A DNA stretch of 37,401 nt from Lachnospiraceae bacterium (GTDB taxonomy: Bacteria; Bacillota; Clostridia; Lachnospirales; Lachnospiraceae): contig JAEEXY010000029.1 of assembly GCA_016288005.1 (NCBI GenBank), forward strand, positions 1 through 37,401. The letters are read 5' to 3'. Under the pieces are notes generated by a model. The model was not told the origin of the DNA and did not search any database. It worked only from the letters and a program-made list of their open reading frames with translations. Position 1 is the first letter of the stretch. Every line of letters starts with the position of its first letter. This document shows positions 20,388 to 34,428 of the stretch, one piece after another. The position numbers and the translations under genes are program-made.

Positions 20388-20660
20388 AAAAAAATAGCTC
20401 CCGTCTTATTAAAGACGAGAGCATAAACTCACGTGGTTCCACTTTAATTCAGCCGTACCTCACGATACGACCCTTTGCGGCTGTCAATCAACAGTCTGTC
20501 CTGTAACGGGGACACCCGTCGGATACTAAGGCTGCGCGTTCGTACCCGCGGCTCCGGGACCATCTTCAAACGTTTCGGCTCCGCCCGCTCTCAGCAAAAT
20601 ACGGGCTCTCTGTGGGAGTTTCCGCGATCTACTCTTCCCTTCATCGCTTTTAACTGCGGT
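20388..20660 (-). promoter_or_regulatory. T-box leader of metG, with terminator
   Basis: The minus-strand RNA contains the T-box core GTGGAACCACGTGAG (about 20428-20442). This is followed by a terminator hairpin with arms GCTCTCGTCTT and AAGACGGGAGC (20397-20422) and seven U. Upstream stem-I features include AGAGAG, a long GC-rich stem and an ATG triplet in TGAAGATGGTCC (20561-20563), a good candidate for the Met specifier. Uncharged tRNA-Met would stabilise the antiterminator and allow metG transcription. This explains the gene-free stretch 20373-20681. Confidence 0.93.
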
Positions 20661-30395: not shown

Positions 30396-31067
30396 TTACC
30401 TGAGCGTCTTTAAATATTCCTTGTGTTCATCCGAAACACGGAAGCTCTCGATCGCCTTCTGTATCGCCTTTTTATGGGTCCAGGGCTCGAGCCTGCGCTC
30501 CTCGATGAACTTTACGCTCGCGTCGTACTGCTTTGCGAGCGCGGTCGCGAAATACCAGGCGACCATCATTTTGATATAATAGTCCTCTCCGTTTACACCT
30601 GCTGCCCATTCGAGGTATTCAGGCTTAAAATCCGCTCCGAGATATTCGTTCATCAGCATCCTGAGACCGAATCTGGCCGTGTAGACATACGCCGACTCCA
30701 TCCATTTTTTGATGAACGGGAGCAGCTTTTCATGGTTTTTCGAGAAAACCTTGGGGCTGGCCTGATCGCTAACCGGCCAGCAGTCGACATACGGAAGGAA
30801 AGTCTCCACCGCTTTTACGCACTCGTCGAAGTCCTTTATCATCGCGATCAGGAAGAAATGCACGAGATTCTCCTCGTAGTACCTGTGAGGCAGTTCGCGC
30901 AAAAATTCCTCCGCCTCCTTCGTGCCCTTTATTTCCTTTGCGATATTACGCATGTCGGGAGTCTTGACCCCCAGGATCGTATCCGCCGGAATATTGGGTA
31001 CGAGCTTACTCTGAAAATCCCTGTATTTTTCGCTGCCGCACGCGGCCAGCCTTTCGTAAACAGCCAT
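30396..31067 (-). CDS. DNA alkylation repair enzyme, AlkD-like HEAT-repeat glycosylase
   Basis: The 223-residue all-helical protein matches the AlkC/AlkD DNA alkylation repair family. Conserved stretches are ILGVKTPDMRNIAKEI, FLPYVDCWPVSDQAS and YTARFGLRMLMNEY, with a final ALAKQYDASVKFIEE helix. AlkD proteins release bulky or cationic N3/N7-alkyl purines without flipping the base. The start is ATG 31067 with GAGGAGG about 8 nt upstream; the longer reading to 31127 overlaps the MGMT gene. It is 49 nt downstream of the MmcQ-MGMT gene. Confidence 0.9.
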   Translation of the reverse strand: MAVYERLAACGSEKYRDFQSKLVPNIPADTILGVKTPDMRNIAKEIKGTKEAEEFLRELPHRYYEENLVHFFLIAMIKDFDECVKAVETFLPYVDCWPVSDQASPKVFSKNHEKLLPFIKKWMESAYVYTARFGLRMLMNEYLGADFKPEYLEWAAGVNGEDYYIKMMVAWYFATALAKQYDASVKFIEERRLEPWTHKKAIQKAIESFRVSDEHKEYLKTLR

Positions 31068-31116
31068 TATACTACCCTCCTCTTTGCGCAAAGCGCGGTG
31101 TTTTATCCGTATATCA

Positions 31117-31755
31117 TCATGTTTCAAAGCCTGATCCGCAGCCGTATTTCCCGAGATCTACCCGTCCGTCCTTAACCTCTATGCCCTCGGCCTCGAGCAG
31201 CTTTGCCTGCGCTCCGGGCCCGCCGAACGCGAATTCTCCGGCCAGCTCACCCTTTGCGTTTACCACACGAAAACACGGGATATGCTCCGGGTCGGGATTC
31301 TTATGCAGAGCGTTGCCGACCGCCCGGGCCATATTGCGGTCAACGGCGGCCTCCGCGACCTGTGCGTAGGTCGCGACGTGTCCGTACGGAATACGCTTAA
31401 CGGCCTCGTAGATCCGCTTTGACGGGCTGTCGCTGATCAGGTCGTAGCTCTCGGCTATCATCTGCCTGACATCCTTATCCGGTATCGTCCCGTCCAGGAT
31501 CACGGTATTCCAGTGCTCCTTGTTCTGATGATAGCCGGGTACGACGGACTTATATATCTCCCTCCAGAAAAAAGCCTTTTCGGGATCTACCTTAACGTTC
31601 AGGTTGACAAAGCCGTCCTTCTCGTAGGTCCAGAGGAATGCCTTTTTATTGCCCGCAAACCTCACGAGCTGCCAGTTTTCATCATGAAACGGCGCGTCCC
31701 GGTATGTGTCCGGAAATGTCAGTCCGTATTCCAGTGCCTCTTCTCTGGTCTTCAT
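31117..31755 (-). CDS. MmcQ/YjbR domain fused to an MGMT-like DNA-binding domain
   Basis: Residues 1-105 form an MmcQ/YjbR (CyaY-like) domain (EEALEYGLTFPDTYRDAPF, WNTVILDGTIPDKDVRQMI). Residues 112-205 form an O6-alkylguanine methyltransferase-type domain with YGHVATYAQVAEAA, RAVGNAL and IPCFRVVN. The acceptor Cys (161) is present, but the following His of the usual PCHR motif is Phe162. GGGAG lies 7-8 nt before ATG. The gene begins 4 nt downstream of the GNAT-RsgA fusion gene and is followed by the AlkD-like gene, which suggests an alkylation-damage role. Confidence 0.87.
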   Translation of the reverse strand: MKTREEALEYGLTFPDTYRDAPFHDENWQLVRFAGNKKAFLWTYEKDGFVNLNVKVDPEKAFFWREIYKSVVPGYHQNKEHWNTVILDGTIPDKDVRQMIAESYDLISDSPSKRIYEAVKRIPYGHVATYAQVAEAAVDRNMARAVGNALHKNPDPEHIPCFRVVNAKGELAGEFAFGGPGAQAKLLEAEGIEVKDGRVDLGKYGCGSGFET

Positions 31756-31759
31756 TTTT

Positions 31760-33343
31760 TTACTCCCACATGTTTCGCTTATTGCTCTTTTTGTAAGCTT
31801 TCGCCCATTTGGATATCTCTTTTTTCATGGCATGGTTATTGGTATTCTCCCTGCCAAGCCTTTTATACAGTTCATAACGCTCAGCGGACAGCTCCCCGCT
31901 TGCCAGGGCAGCCTTTACCGCGCAGCCCGGCTCCGTTTCGTGCCTGCAGTTGCCGAATCTGCATCTCGCCTCGAGTTCCACGATATCCGAGAAAGTCTCA
32001 TCGATCCCATCCTGCACATTCGCCATGCCGACCTCACGCATGCCGGGAGTATCGATGATCGTAACCCCGCCGGGCAGCTCGATCAGTTTTCTGTACGTGG
32101 TGGTATGCCTGCCCTTGTCGTCGTCTTCCCTGATCGCGGATGTCTTCATGGTCTCTTCGCCGGTTATTGAATTGATCAGTGTCGATTTCCCCGCGCCCGA
32201 AGAACCCATCAGGCAGATGGTGGTTCCGGGAGTCATGTATTCCTTAAGCTCATCCAGTCCGATCCCGCAGAGCGCCGATATGGCATGGACGCGTACATTG
32301 TCGGAAATCTGCTCCGCTTCCCTCACATACCTTCCCACATTCGCGCAAAGGTCCGATTTCGTGAGGATCACGACAGGCACTGCCCCGCCCTGCACGGCGA
32401 TGCTCGCGTACCTTGCTATACGATTATAATTGTAATCCTCATTGAGGGATGTAACAATAAAAAGATAATCCACATTGGCCGCCATATACTGCATGACCCC
32501 TGTTTTGGCCTGATCTGGCCGCTGCAGAAAGCTCTTCCTCTCGCAGACCGACAGGATCACGGAATCTCCGTGACGGTTATACAGAAATGTCACATAGTCA
32601 CCCACGACAGGCAGCTTTTCGGCATCCTCTTCGTAAAAATGCCCCTTCAGCTTCGCCGGCAGCTCCTGCTCCCAGAACCTGATCTTATAACCGTTTTTGT
32701 TTACTTCACAAATCCTGCCCAGTTTTTCGACATGAAGCCACTGGCAGGAAAGCTTTAACGGCTTGTAATAGGGAAAGCCCTTCGTAAACTCTTCCGTTTC
32801 CTTTTCATCCTCGCATGTCTCAAAGACAGGCGCTTCATAAAAATATCCGTGGATCTCTTCAAACCCCTCATTCAGCGGAAGTGCCATAAAAGCATCGGCA
32901 TTCCCAAAGGCCGGATGATGAATATCAAAGTGATCACAGGTCACAAAACCGTGTTTCGGATAATACTCCGGCTCACCGCAGATCACGATCCCCTTATATC
33001 CGGCTTTTTTTGCCAAAGGCAGCGTTTCTTTCAGAAGAAGCGAGCCTATTCCCATACTGAAGCATGTCGGCTCCACCGCAAGCGGCCCGAATGTTAATAC
33101 TTCATACTTTTTATCGCCGTCAACCACCGCGGCCTTTGAATAGAAAATAGCCCCTGCTATCTTTCCGTCAAGCTCTGCCACGCGGCTCAGTTCCGGCAAA
33201 TACTCCCCGGCGCCGCGAAGCTTATGCACGAGCAGATGCTCATTGCATCCGGGATCGTGTATGTTCCAGAAAGCCCGCATCGTCATAAGTTCAGTGGCAT
33301 AGTAGTCTTCTTCTGTTTCTTTTCTGATGATTATATTATTCAA
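31760..33343 (-). CDS. GNAT acetyltransferase fused to ribosome-assembly GTPase RsgA
   Basis: The 527-residue protein has two domains. Residues 1-160 are GNAT-like, with the acyl-CoA loop in SMGIGSLLL (96-104) and EYYPKHGF. Residues about 200-527 are RsgA, with an OB-fold and then a circularly permuted GTPase: G4 TKSD (328-331), G5 SALCG, G1 GSSGAGKST (380-388), switch GRHTTT, G3 DTPG (431-434) and a zinc site (C461, C466, H468, C474). RsgA helps mature the 30S subunit. The fusion suggests acetylation linked to the small subunit or to something bound there, which is inference. GGAG is 8 nt before ATG. A structured leader with a short ORF precedes it. Confidence 0.93.
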   Translation of the reverse strand: MNNIIIRKETEEDYYATELMTMRAFWNIHDPGCNEHLLVHKLRGAGEYLPELSRVAELDGKIAGAIFYSKAAVVDGDKKYEVLTFGPLAVEPTCFSMGIGSLLLKETLPLAKKAGYKGIVICGEPEYYPKHGFVTCDHFDIHHPAFGNADAFMALPLNEGFEEIHGYFYEAPVFETCEDEKETEEFTKGFPYYKPLKLSCQWLHVEKLGRICEVNKNGYKIRFWEQELPAKLKGHFYEEDAEKLPVVGDYVTFLYNRHGDSVILSVCERKSFLQRPDQAKTGVMQYMAANVDYLFIVTSLNEDYNYNRIARYASIAVQGGAVPVVILTKSDLCANVGRYVREAEQISDNVRVHAISALCGIGLDELKEYMTPGTTICLMGSSGAGKSTLINSITGEETMKTSAIREDDDKGRHTTTYRKLIELPGGVTIIDTPGMREVGMANVQDGIDETFSDIVELEARCRFGNCRHETEPGCAVKAALASGELSAERYELYKRLGRENTNNHAMKKEISKWAKAYKKSNKRNMWE

Positions 33344-33424
33344 TTTTGCAGTCTCCTTTTGATTCTTTCTTTGTTCAACACGCGATTACTCTTATAGTAT
33401 GGAGACCCGGTGTAACGGAAAACT

Positions 33425-33467
33425 GCCCGAAAAGGGCAAAAGAAAACCGTGACAGCCAAGCCACGGT
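33425..33467 (-). terminator. Terminator and overlapping hairpin in the GNAT-RsgA leader
   Basis: On the minus strand, ACCGTG/CACGGT (33446-33467) is followed by TTTTCTTTT, a standard intrinsic terminator inside the leader. Immediately after it, GCCC/GGGC (33425-33437) forms a small second hairpin followed by AGTTTTCC. The GGGC arm can instead pair with the end of the leader ORF (GGGCAG with CTGCCC at 33504-33509), so the two structures exclude each other. Confidence 0.7.
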
Positions 33468-33498
33468 CATAAAGCCATATTAATATATCCCTATAGGA

Positions 33499-33564
33499 TC
33501 AAAGGGCAGAAACCGAGGTCATCATACTATATTCACTTACAATCTCAAATCTTGCGACACGCAT
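33499..33564 (-). CDS. Putative 21-residue leader peptide upstream of the GNAT-RsgA gene
   Basis: The ORF has 21 codons, beginning MRVARFEIVSEYS and ending MMTSVSAL. It has an ATG start with AGTGAGGT 8 nt upstream and lies about 40 nt after the predicted transcription start. It is the only ORF in a leader of about 260 nt and is followed by a terminator. Codons 12-14 (TATAGTATG) are perfectly complementary to 33393-33401 near the end of the leader, and codons 19-21 pair with 33423-33428. I do not recognise the peptide. The arrangement fits translation-dependent attenuation. Confidence 0.7.
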   Translation of the reverse strand: MRVARFEIVSEYSMMTSVSAL

Positions 33565-33606
33565 TATGATTACCTCACTTTCCTCAAAAATTTAATGAAC
33601 ATGTAT

Positions 33607-33635
33607 TTTATACCACAGTTAGGGCATTACGTCAA
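33607..33635 (-). promoter_or_regulatory. Sigma-A-type promoter of the GNAT-RsgA leader transcript
   Basis: On the minus strand TTGACG (33630-33635) and TATAAA (33607-33612) are 17 bp apart. With the leader ORF and attenuator it accounts for the gene-free stretch 33344-33678. Confidence 0.82.
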
Positions 33636-33678: not shown

Positions 33679-34428
33679 CTATTCCCTTATTACCGCGCGT
33701 CCTGCCTTGCGGACCCGGACCACTCTGTAGCCGCCTTCTTCATATATTCTTTTGGGCGTCTCACCGTCCGGCCATATATAGACATTATCAATACCGTTTT
33801 GCCTGCACCATTCCACATAGTAATAAAACAGAGCACGACCGACACCTGCTTTTCTGTGTTTCTTGGAAACAAGAAGATAATCCACCCGGCAGGCTCTTTC
33901 TGAAATATGTCCGTACAATAATCCGACTGTCTTACCGTTCATACTTGCTGCAAACATCCATGCTTCCGGGCAGTCCAGCGTTTTCTTCGCAACCTTGATC
34001 TCCCATGGTTCTTCCGCTTCAATAAATACATTCTCTATCCCATCGCTCCATTCCGAAACTATTCTGACTGTAATATCAGGGTTGGGAATGATCCTGTTCT
34101 TGTCCGCTTGGAGCATATACTCCTGATCTTCGATCCAGCTCCTGAATCCGGCCGCCGTGAGTTCTTCCTGTATTTCGTCGAACCAGTTATCATCCAGCAT
34201 GGATTGATATATGATCGGTCTGCTTCCCTTTTCCTGATAAAAAGCGATAATATCTGATAGCACCTGCTGAAGATCATGAATCTTATCCTTATAGATCACC
34301 GCATGGTTAGAATCATAAGAATCTTTATTATCTGTATTAAAGAAAAGGATTCCGTATTCCCTCTCTTCATGATCGGTAAAGATTTTGGGAAAAAGATCCT
34401 CTTCAACGTAGCAATCCTGTAGGTTCAT
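33679..34428 (-). CDS. GNAT family N-acetyltransferase
   Basis: The 249-residue protein has a less conserved N-terminal half (about 1-115) and a C-terminal GNAT core with the acetyl-CoA loop in LVSKKHRKAGVGRALFYYY and a final IYEEGGYRVVRVR strand, typical of small-molecule acetyltransferases. The substrate is unknown. It is the last gene of the AT-rich unit with the condensation-like and isomerase-like genes, 8 nt downstream of a 34-codon ORF. No terminator is visible before the next promoter. Confidence 0.88.
   Translation of the reverse strand: MNLQDCYVEEDLFPKIFTDHEEREYGILFFNTDNKDSYDSNHAVIYKDKIHDLQQVLSDIIAFYQEKGSRPIIYQSMLDDNWFDEIQEELTAAGFRSWIEDQEYMLQADKNRIIPNPDITVRIVSEWSDGIENVFIEAEEPWEIKVAKKTLDCPEAWMFAASMNGKTVGLLYGHISERACRVDYLLVSKKHRKAGVGRALFYYYVEWCRQNGIDNVYIWPDGETPKRIYEEGGYRVVRVRKAGRAVIRE

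Follow-up and report, generated by a model that had tools for sequence, protein, structure and literature searches.

A GNAT-RsgA fusion gene of a Lachnospiraceae bacterium is probably preceded by a ribosome-mediated attenuator that controls both the transcription and the translation of what would be a second, stress-type RsgA GTPase. The gene and its leader lie on the minus strand of the 37,401-nucleotide stretch of DNA analysed here (contig JAEEXY010000029.1), referred to below as the window. The features of the locus are as follows.

33607..33635 (-), promoter TTGACG-17-TATAAA, read from the sequence; relatives share the layout
33566..33582 (-), segment 1, GAAAGTGAGGTAATCAT (GAAAGNGAGGTAATCAT), ribosome-binding site of the leader ORF and putative anti-antiterminator strand, by 1:2 pairing
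33499..33564 (-), leader ORF, 21 codons plus stop, MRVARFEIVSEYSMMTSVSAL, preceded by GAGGAAAGTGAGGT, by frame conservation
33509..33531 (-), segment 2, TATAGTATGATGACCTCGGTTTC (TATAGTATGATGACCTCGGTTT), codons 12-19; predicted partners are segment 1, the terminator 5′ arm or segment 3
33460..33468 (-), terminator 5′ arm (T5), GACCGTGGC; predicted second role as partner of segment 2 (antiterminator)
33437..33453 (-), terminator 3′ arm (T3), GTCACGGTT, with U-rich tract
33423..33439 (-), second small hairpin, GCCCTTTTCGGGC, with U-rich tract; lacking in some relatives
33393..33408 (-), segment 3, GGGTCTCCATACTATA (AGGTCTCCATACTAT); predicted to pair with segment 2 (ON) or with the ribosome-binding site of the gene (OFF)
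33351..33360 (-), segment 4, AAAAGGAGAC (AAGGAGAC), ribosome-binding site of the GNAT-RsgA gene
31760..33343 (-), putatively regulated gene, GNAT-RsgA fusion, 527 aa, TTG start, by Pfam and TIGR00157

By default, when the leader ORF is read through or is not read at all, segment 1 would pair with segment 2 (1:2) and the terminator would form; in transcripts escaping the terminator, segment 3 would cover the ribosome-binding site of the gene (3:4). A ribosome held at the start codon or the first codons of the leader ORF would cover segment 1, and segment 2 would then pair first with T5 (2:T5), allowing RNA polymerase to read on, and subsequently with segment 3 (2:3), releasing the ribosome-binding site of the gene. 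The likely input is whatever holds ribosomes at start codons or in the first steps of elongation, for example ribosome-targeting antibiotics, and the output would be more GNAT-RsgA, restoring or protecting 30S function. The kinetic order of these steps, the inducer and the task of the protein are those that we infer.

The leader and the fusion gene

Rereading of the sequence placed the promoter, the ORF, the terminator, the pairings and the fusion gene at the positions given in the original prediction, which was made from the window alone. The promoter consists of TTGACG (33635-33630), a 17-nt spacer and TATAAA (33612-33607). Promoters with at least 10 of 12 matches were found in 33 of 63 leaders vs. 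about 3% of mononucleotide shuffles. A separate motif scan of the window did not list the promoter, because its rule requires T as the sixth base of the second hexamer. The intrinsic terminator, with a stem at 33468-33445 followed by a U-rich tract, lies between the leader ORF and the gene and is separated from the latter by ca. 100 nt. TATAGTATG (codons 12-14, 33531-33523) is a perfect complement of 33401-33393, and CTGCCC (33509-33504) is complementary to GGGCAG (33428-33423). These 9-bp and CTGCCC/GGGCAG pairings, which had been proposed to nest into one long stem, are present, and the long nested stem is part of the minimum-free-energy fold of the window leader. The z-score of this fold is -1.31 (27 of 200 shuffles equal or better), and 21 of 200 dinucleotide shuffles reach a perfect helix of 9 bp or more whose arms are at least 40 nt apart. 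The evidence from the window alone is thus modest and does not clearly beat chance; it is the comparison with homologues that makes it strong.

The protein contains an N-terminal GNAT acetyltransferase domain followed by an RsgA GTPase domain (Pfam RsgA_GTPase, 9e-47, in addition to GNAT domains) and scores 145.3 bits against TIGR00157 (cut-off 100). It carries GSSGAGKST, DTPG, TKSD, KGRHTTT and C-x4-C-x-H-x5-C, i.e., the elements of an RsgA GTPase domain and zinc motif. The genome from which the window derives encodes one ordinary rsgA and the GNAT-RsgA paralogue above the family cut-off with a long match; ordinary and paralogue RsgA proteins are ca. 30% identical. No further convincing copy of the leader was found in this genome (other matches, E 0.07).

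The GNAT-RsgA gene is followed, 4 nt past its stop codon, by a gene (31117-31755, minus strand) for a YjbR-like domain fused to an O6-methylguanine methyltransferase domain (Ogt), and then by an AlkD-like DNA repair gene (30396-31127, minus strand). A conserved operon of GNAT-RsgA with alkylation-repair genes was considered and rejected, since YjbR-Ogt genes are present in the flanks examined of only 9 of 80 related loci and AlkD-like genes of only 4 of 80. Immediately upstream of the leader there is a separate GNAT acetyltransferase gene (33679-34428, minus strand), relatives of which were absent from the flanks examined of the 80 related loci.

Conservation and covariation of the leader

The best 80 of 184 relatives retrieved by a protein search were kept; they come mostly from Butyrivibrio and other Lachnospiraceae of rumen and gut. 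Within this set, the leader is present upstream of 77 of the 79 GNAT-RsgA or RsgA-paralogue genes for which upstream sequence is available (L076 has none). In 72 cases the leader ORF and the terminator were located by anchor motifs, and in five (L051, L057, L091, L094 and L104) the leader was recognized by a covariance model; the leaders of L051, L057 and L094 are truncated by the contig end. Neither procedure revealed a leader at L096 and L108. The covariance model gave no match at the 23 ordinary rsgA loci of the genus, at three GNAT-only loci (L005, L015 and L029) or at the fragment L025; the two further paralogue loci of the genus, L003 and L004, were both matched. Comparison of the relatives supports a conserved promoter, ORF and terminator as well as a covarying 2:3 pairing.

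Several loci deserve separate mention. L103, from a contig titled Myxococcales, encodes a GNAT-RsgA protein (64% identical) preceded by the leader; since both leader and protein are close to those of the Lachnospiraceae loci L101 and L102, the title may be a binning error. In L109, L110, L178 and L184, RsgA paralogues follow the same leader and retain the initial GNAT residues (IRKET) while the remainder of the domain is gone, which suggests that the acetyltransferase part was lost later. L114 has IIIREE, and L111 has neither IRKET nor IIIREE.

The reading frame of the leader ORF is kept. Although no frame condition was imposed on the search, every one of the 95 anchored rows, including all 64 non-redundant ones, has a distance of 42, 45, 48 or 51 nt from the ATG to a conserved ACC, and the ORF stops 6 codons past the ACC in 60 of the 64 non-redundant rows. 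Five of six divergent RsgA leaders outside the anchored set are also in frame, the exception being L164, and in the PF09818 leaders L146 and L167 the ACCTCGG is read in another frame.

The peptide is a different matter. Over codons 2-11, the first, second and third codon positions show 69, 121 and 87 parsimony steps, respectively (46 rows), so that there is no excess at third positions and change is fastest at second positions. Since a selected protein would vary most at position 3, the amino acids appear largely unimportant, and a conserved drug-stalling peptide of the ErmC type is not apparent from these counts. A run of regulatory codons, as in attenuators of amino-acid biosynthesis, was not found in the leader ORFs either. 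What matters is that an ORF ends just past segment 2; judged by these comparisons, it is probably a ribosome track rather than an arrest peptide. The "leader peptide" of the original prediction therefore stands as an ORF and largely falls as a peptide.

Covariation was analyzed by comparing observed pairing with that of swapped strands; eight of the 95 rows had been removed beforehand for a poor segment 3, and of the 43 RsgA-type leaders obtained in the genome searches 20 were left out, which tilts the test towards our reading. The anchor motifs GAGG, CCG[TC]GG and GGAG are present in every row by construction. In the 64 non-redundant rows, segments 2 and 3 are paired at 86.9% of positions vs. 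82.9% for swapped strands, a value reached by 0 of 2000 swaps. At the codon-13 base the pair is AT in 29 rows, GC in 7, TA in 6 and CG in 5 (49 of 64 rows paired, including G-U, and 15 unpaired); two bases beyond it is TA in 52 and CG in 7 of the 64 rows. On the protein tree of 63 rows, the 2:3 pair types require 29 parsimony steps, i.e., they change recurrently. For 1:2, pairing is 79.0% vs. 77.7% for swapped strands and again 0 of 2000 swaps reach it, in a helix that is largely invariant and whose GAGG:CCTC core served as an anchor. The terminator helix T5:T3 is 99.2% paired, with changes on both sides at three of eight pairs (45 leaders). Each of the six 3:4 pairs (GTCTCC:GGAGAC) is kept in 43 to 59 of 59 rows; the swap test for 3:4 covariation was not significant (414 of 2000), GGAG being an anchor motif.

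For the 2:T5 helix (CC-U-CGGUU with AACCG-U-GG), covariation among RsgA leaders is uninformative because both of its strands were located by fixed, nearly invariant motifs (1256 of 2000 swaps reach the observed pairing). Two observations give hints in its favour. The terminator retains a G-U pair in 42 of 45 leaders at the position where 2:T5 needs the G, and the PF09818 leaders differ on both sides of the putative helix (CGGAA/TTCCG in L167 and CGGGAA/TTTCCG in L146). Among 15 leaders of several gene classes, the observed pairing was equalled by 163 of 5000 swaps for 1:2 and by 220 of 5000 for 2:T5.

The ORF and the long-range pairing on which the original prediction depended are thus both found in homologues; the second small hairpin (33439-33423), which includes GGGCAG, is not general, being absent from several relatives, e.g., L045, L047 and L053 (noted by eye and uncounted).

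The predicted switch and alternative readings

The switch and its dependence on ribosome position are predicted by equilibrium folding of leaders from related species with an assumed ribosome footprint. Fifty-nine leaders were folded in three states: as free RNA, with a ribosome covering segment 1 up to codon 8 ("early") and with a ribosome at the stop codon. In RNA ending just after T5, the mean probability of 2:T5 was 0.10 in free RNA, 0.88 with the early ribosome and 0.00 with the stop-codon ribosome, and the early value exceeded the free one in 59 of 59 leaders. Segment 2 is shared by 1:2 and 2:T5, and in these folds all 59 leaders switch between them. In the full leader, the corresponding values for 2:3 were 0.11, 0.78 and 0.27, and the ribosome-binding site of the gene was unpaired with probabilities of 0.13, 0.53 and 0.21, the early ribosome giving a higher value than free RNA in 53 of 59 leaders. 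The terminator hairpin was not lost in full-length equilibrium folds (0.98, 0.98 and 0.96 in the three states); antitermination would thus need 2:T5 to be formed first and held while RNA polymerase passes. In six divergent RsgA leaders the gain in 2:T5 ranged from 0.28 to 0.96, the lowest values being those of L131 (0.28) and L119 (0.29).

When a 31-nt footprint was moved along 30 leaders, the predicted state was ON at codons 1-3 (0.76, 0.79 and 0.60) and OFF at codons 5-8 (0.10-0.17) and 13-22. A second ON peak appeared at codons 10-11 (0.47 and 0.51; 0.90 and 0.96 in the window), with the ribosome-binding site of the gene staying closed. These folds predict that the leader senses ribosomes held at its start codon.

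Ribosome-mediated attenuation from the leader ORF, as originally proposed, is well supported by conservation; its direction and anatomy need correcting. A ribosome on the ORF had been expected to disrupt the long stem, but a ribosome held upstream of segment 2 should favour it. Moreover, since the terminator lies inside the long stem (codons 12-16 with 33408-33393) and precedes its completion, termination cannot be prevented by this stem itself. We read the stem as the ON-state helix that would free the ribosome-binding site of the gene, and we read the pairing of codons 16-18 with T5 as the probable antiterminator. Besides this pairing of segment 2 with the terminator 5′ arm, the original prediction had missed the OFF-state hairpin in which the leader's own ribosome-binding site pairs with codons 14-19, as well as the helix formed by GGTCTCC and the GGAGAC of the gene.

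If the helices were incidental, the ORF untranslated and the conservation that of a plain terminator and promoter, one could understand why the window alone does not clearly exceed shuffles and why the frame of ACCTCGG is shifted in L164, L146 and L167; the frame kept in every anchored row and the covarying 2:3 pairs make this account hardly credible. A starvation attenuator of the trp/his kind, which would likewise have its leader ORF overlap alternative hairpins, is about as improbable, there being no run of a single amino acid and most early residues differing between relatives. RsgA functions in 30S maturation, and one may imagine autoregulation by ribosome supply, whereby a shortage of competent 30S subunits leaves the leader ORF untranslated and RsgA rises; this is very unlikely, because untranslated, i.e., free, RNA is predicted to be OFF.

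Arrest by the nascent peptide (the ermC or RLR type), where peptide sequence and one drug class together stall the ribosome within the ORF, would fit the short ORF with its good ribosome-binding site, the early basic residues of some leaders (RVAR, RVEK) and the second folding peak for ribosomes at codons 10-11. It is nevertheless an unlikely explanation: residues 2-6 are highly variable, codons 2-11 change fastest at second positions, and folding gives OFF for ribosomes at codons 5-8. The preferred reading, a switch responding to ribosomes held at the start of the ORF, has points against it too, namely the shifted frame of L164, the lack of a 2:T5 gain in L160 and the peak at codons 10-11, for which it offers no explanation.

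Known systems and the wider family of leaders

The kind of control proposed here is already known; the leader family and its RsgA target appear to be new. The vmlR gene of Bacillus subtilis is subject to dual transcription and translation attenuation, with inducers that are drugs expected to stall initiation (PMC9226507). Its leader, as described, shares with the predicted anatomy of ours a short ORF within an anti-antiterminator hairpin, an intrinsic terminator, a hairpin over the ribosome-binding site of the gene and an antiterminator that also frees this site, and differs in that the vmlR ORF has 3 codons rather than the 21 of the window, its ribosome-binding site is single-stranded before the hairpin, whereas here it is a strand of the hairpin, and the gene encodes an ABC-F factor (PMC9226507). 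In Listeria, hflXr (rli80) is, as proposed here for GNAT-RsgA, an extra copy of a ribosome-acting GTPase gene under ribosome-dependent transcription attenuation, with the ordinary copy elsewhere; it encodes HflX and not RsgA, its 14-codon ORF contains an RLR motif, and its description mentions no helix at the ribosome-binding site (PMC6310831). The bmrB leader of bmrCD in B. subtilis is a case of attenuation by a leader ORF preceding the genes of a multidrug ABC exporter, a position also held by some relatives of our leader; it precedes another gene than GNAT-RsgA and is likened by its description (PMC4191407). The uORF switch toiL of topAI-yjhQ in E. coli is opened when tetracycline stalls ribosomes at the start codon, and retapamulin opens it as well; it differs in acting through Rho-dependent termination inside the gene, in a model with no intrinsic terminator (PMC12121999). 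According to the same account, both drugs act at the start codons of E. coli, tetracycline by holding ribosomes and retapamulin by trapping those that initiate (PMC12121999). Finally, in work on the WblC/WhiB7 regulon of Streptomyces, an RsgA/EngC pair, SCO6149 and SCO5211, is listed with other paralogues of which one is WblC- and tetracycline-dependent, and the regulon includes GNATs and ABC transporters, like the genes of the leader family; its control is by a transcription factor (PMC7157823).

The main text of an attenuator survey mentions neither rsgA, engC nor GTPase (PMC2965389), and searches of the open-licence literature gave no report of an attenuator before rsgA and, in titles and abstract openings, nothing on such leaders in Butyrivibrio or Lachnospiraceae. 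Rfam contains no family matching the GNAT-RsgA leader at gathering score, nor any credible weak match (best E 0.18); the sole Rfam match of the window at gathering score is a T-box leader at 20408-20653 (minus strand; 109.9 bits, gathering 93). The leader would link an RsgA paralogue, a member of a ribosome-assembly family, to a control RNA known from antibiotic-resistance factors, which makes it a testable claim that some assembly GTPases have been duplicated as inducible stress factors. It also provides a sequence signature for finding more candidate translation-stress genes in gut and rumen bacteria.

Genome samples were searched with the covariance model R1 and stricter filters were applied. 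In the family sample the model matched at 42 places in 39 of 397 genomes, in the order sample at 46 places in 38 of 392, and in the phylum sample in 8 of 398 genomes, with six phylum matches lying outside the family (E 9e-5 to 9e-4). All 42 family places were read, as were the 37 order places that they did not already include; genes other than RsgA were named by Pfam for one or two members per class and by resemblance for the others. The family places precede RsgA paralogues (21, window included), GNAT genes (5), ABC exporters (7) and a PF09818 ATPase (1); the rest are a GNAT-like leader before another gene (L132), three unclassified (L135, L145 and L151) and four with a terminator only. L120 with its cut gene (RsgA paralogue) and L133 (GNAT) were assigned by eye. 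The order places comprise 22 RsgA paralogues, 2 GNAT genes, 2 M3 peptidases, 2 hydrolase-like genes, 1 PF09818 gene, 1 remnant (L166, judged by appearance) and 7 with a terminator only. The R1 matches L147, L148, L153, L155 and L168-L174 were rejected as terminators without a leader. In L119 a small gene stands between the leader and the RsgA paralogue, and in L141 there is a stop early in the GNAT gene.

Covering segment 1 with a ribosome raised 2:T5 by at least 0.3 in 13 of the 18 non-RsgA leaders with usable anchors, among them L165, L161 and L146, in which 2:T5 starts at 0.55-0.69; such a gain was absent in L137, L139, L140, L152 and L160. The ribosome-binding site of the gene opened by more than 0.2 in only three of the 16 that were scored (L152, L161 and L162), and the transcription half of the switch therefore seems to be shared more widely than the translation half. 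From these comparisons, we infer that related bacteria of rumen and gut carry similar switches upstream of several further genes. More tentatively, we suggest a modular "start-codon stall" RNA cassette of Lachnospiraceae and their order, set in front of six or more unrelated gene families (RsgA paralogues, GNAT acetyltransferases, ABC exporters, M3 peptidases, PF09818 ATPases and hydrolase-like proteins), that might be an RNA-only counterpart of the WhiB7 translation-stress regulon, with GNAT-RsgA as a new kind of inducible 30S ribosome-protection factor parallel to HflXr.

Membership is least certain for the leaders of ABC exporter genes. In L134, L136, L137, L140, L150, L152 and L154 a related leader ORF, 23-34 codons long, stands upstream of such a gene, and folding supports a switch in L134, L136 and L150 only. 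In L159 and L160 the leader lies upstream of an M3-family peptidase gene, and its peptide ends in EYCVMTSVCVL, very like that of the window; L159 folds as a switch and L160 does not. In L132, the gene following the GNAT-type leader is, by its appearance, presumably an IS200/IS605-type transposon gene standing in place of the acetyltransferase.
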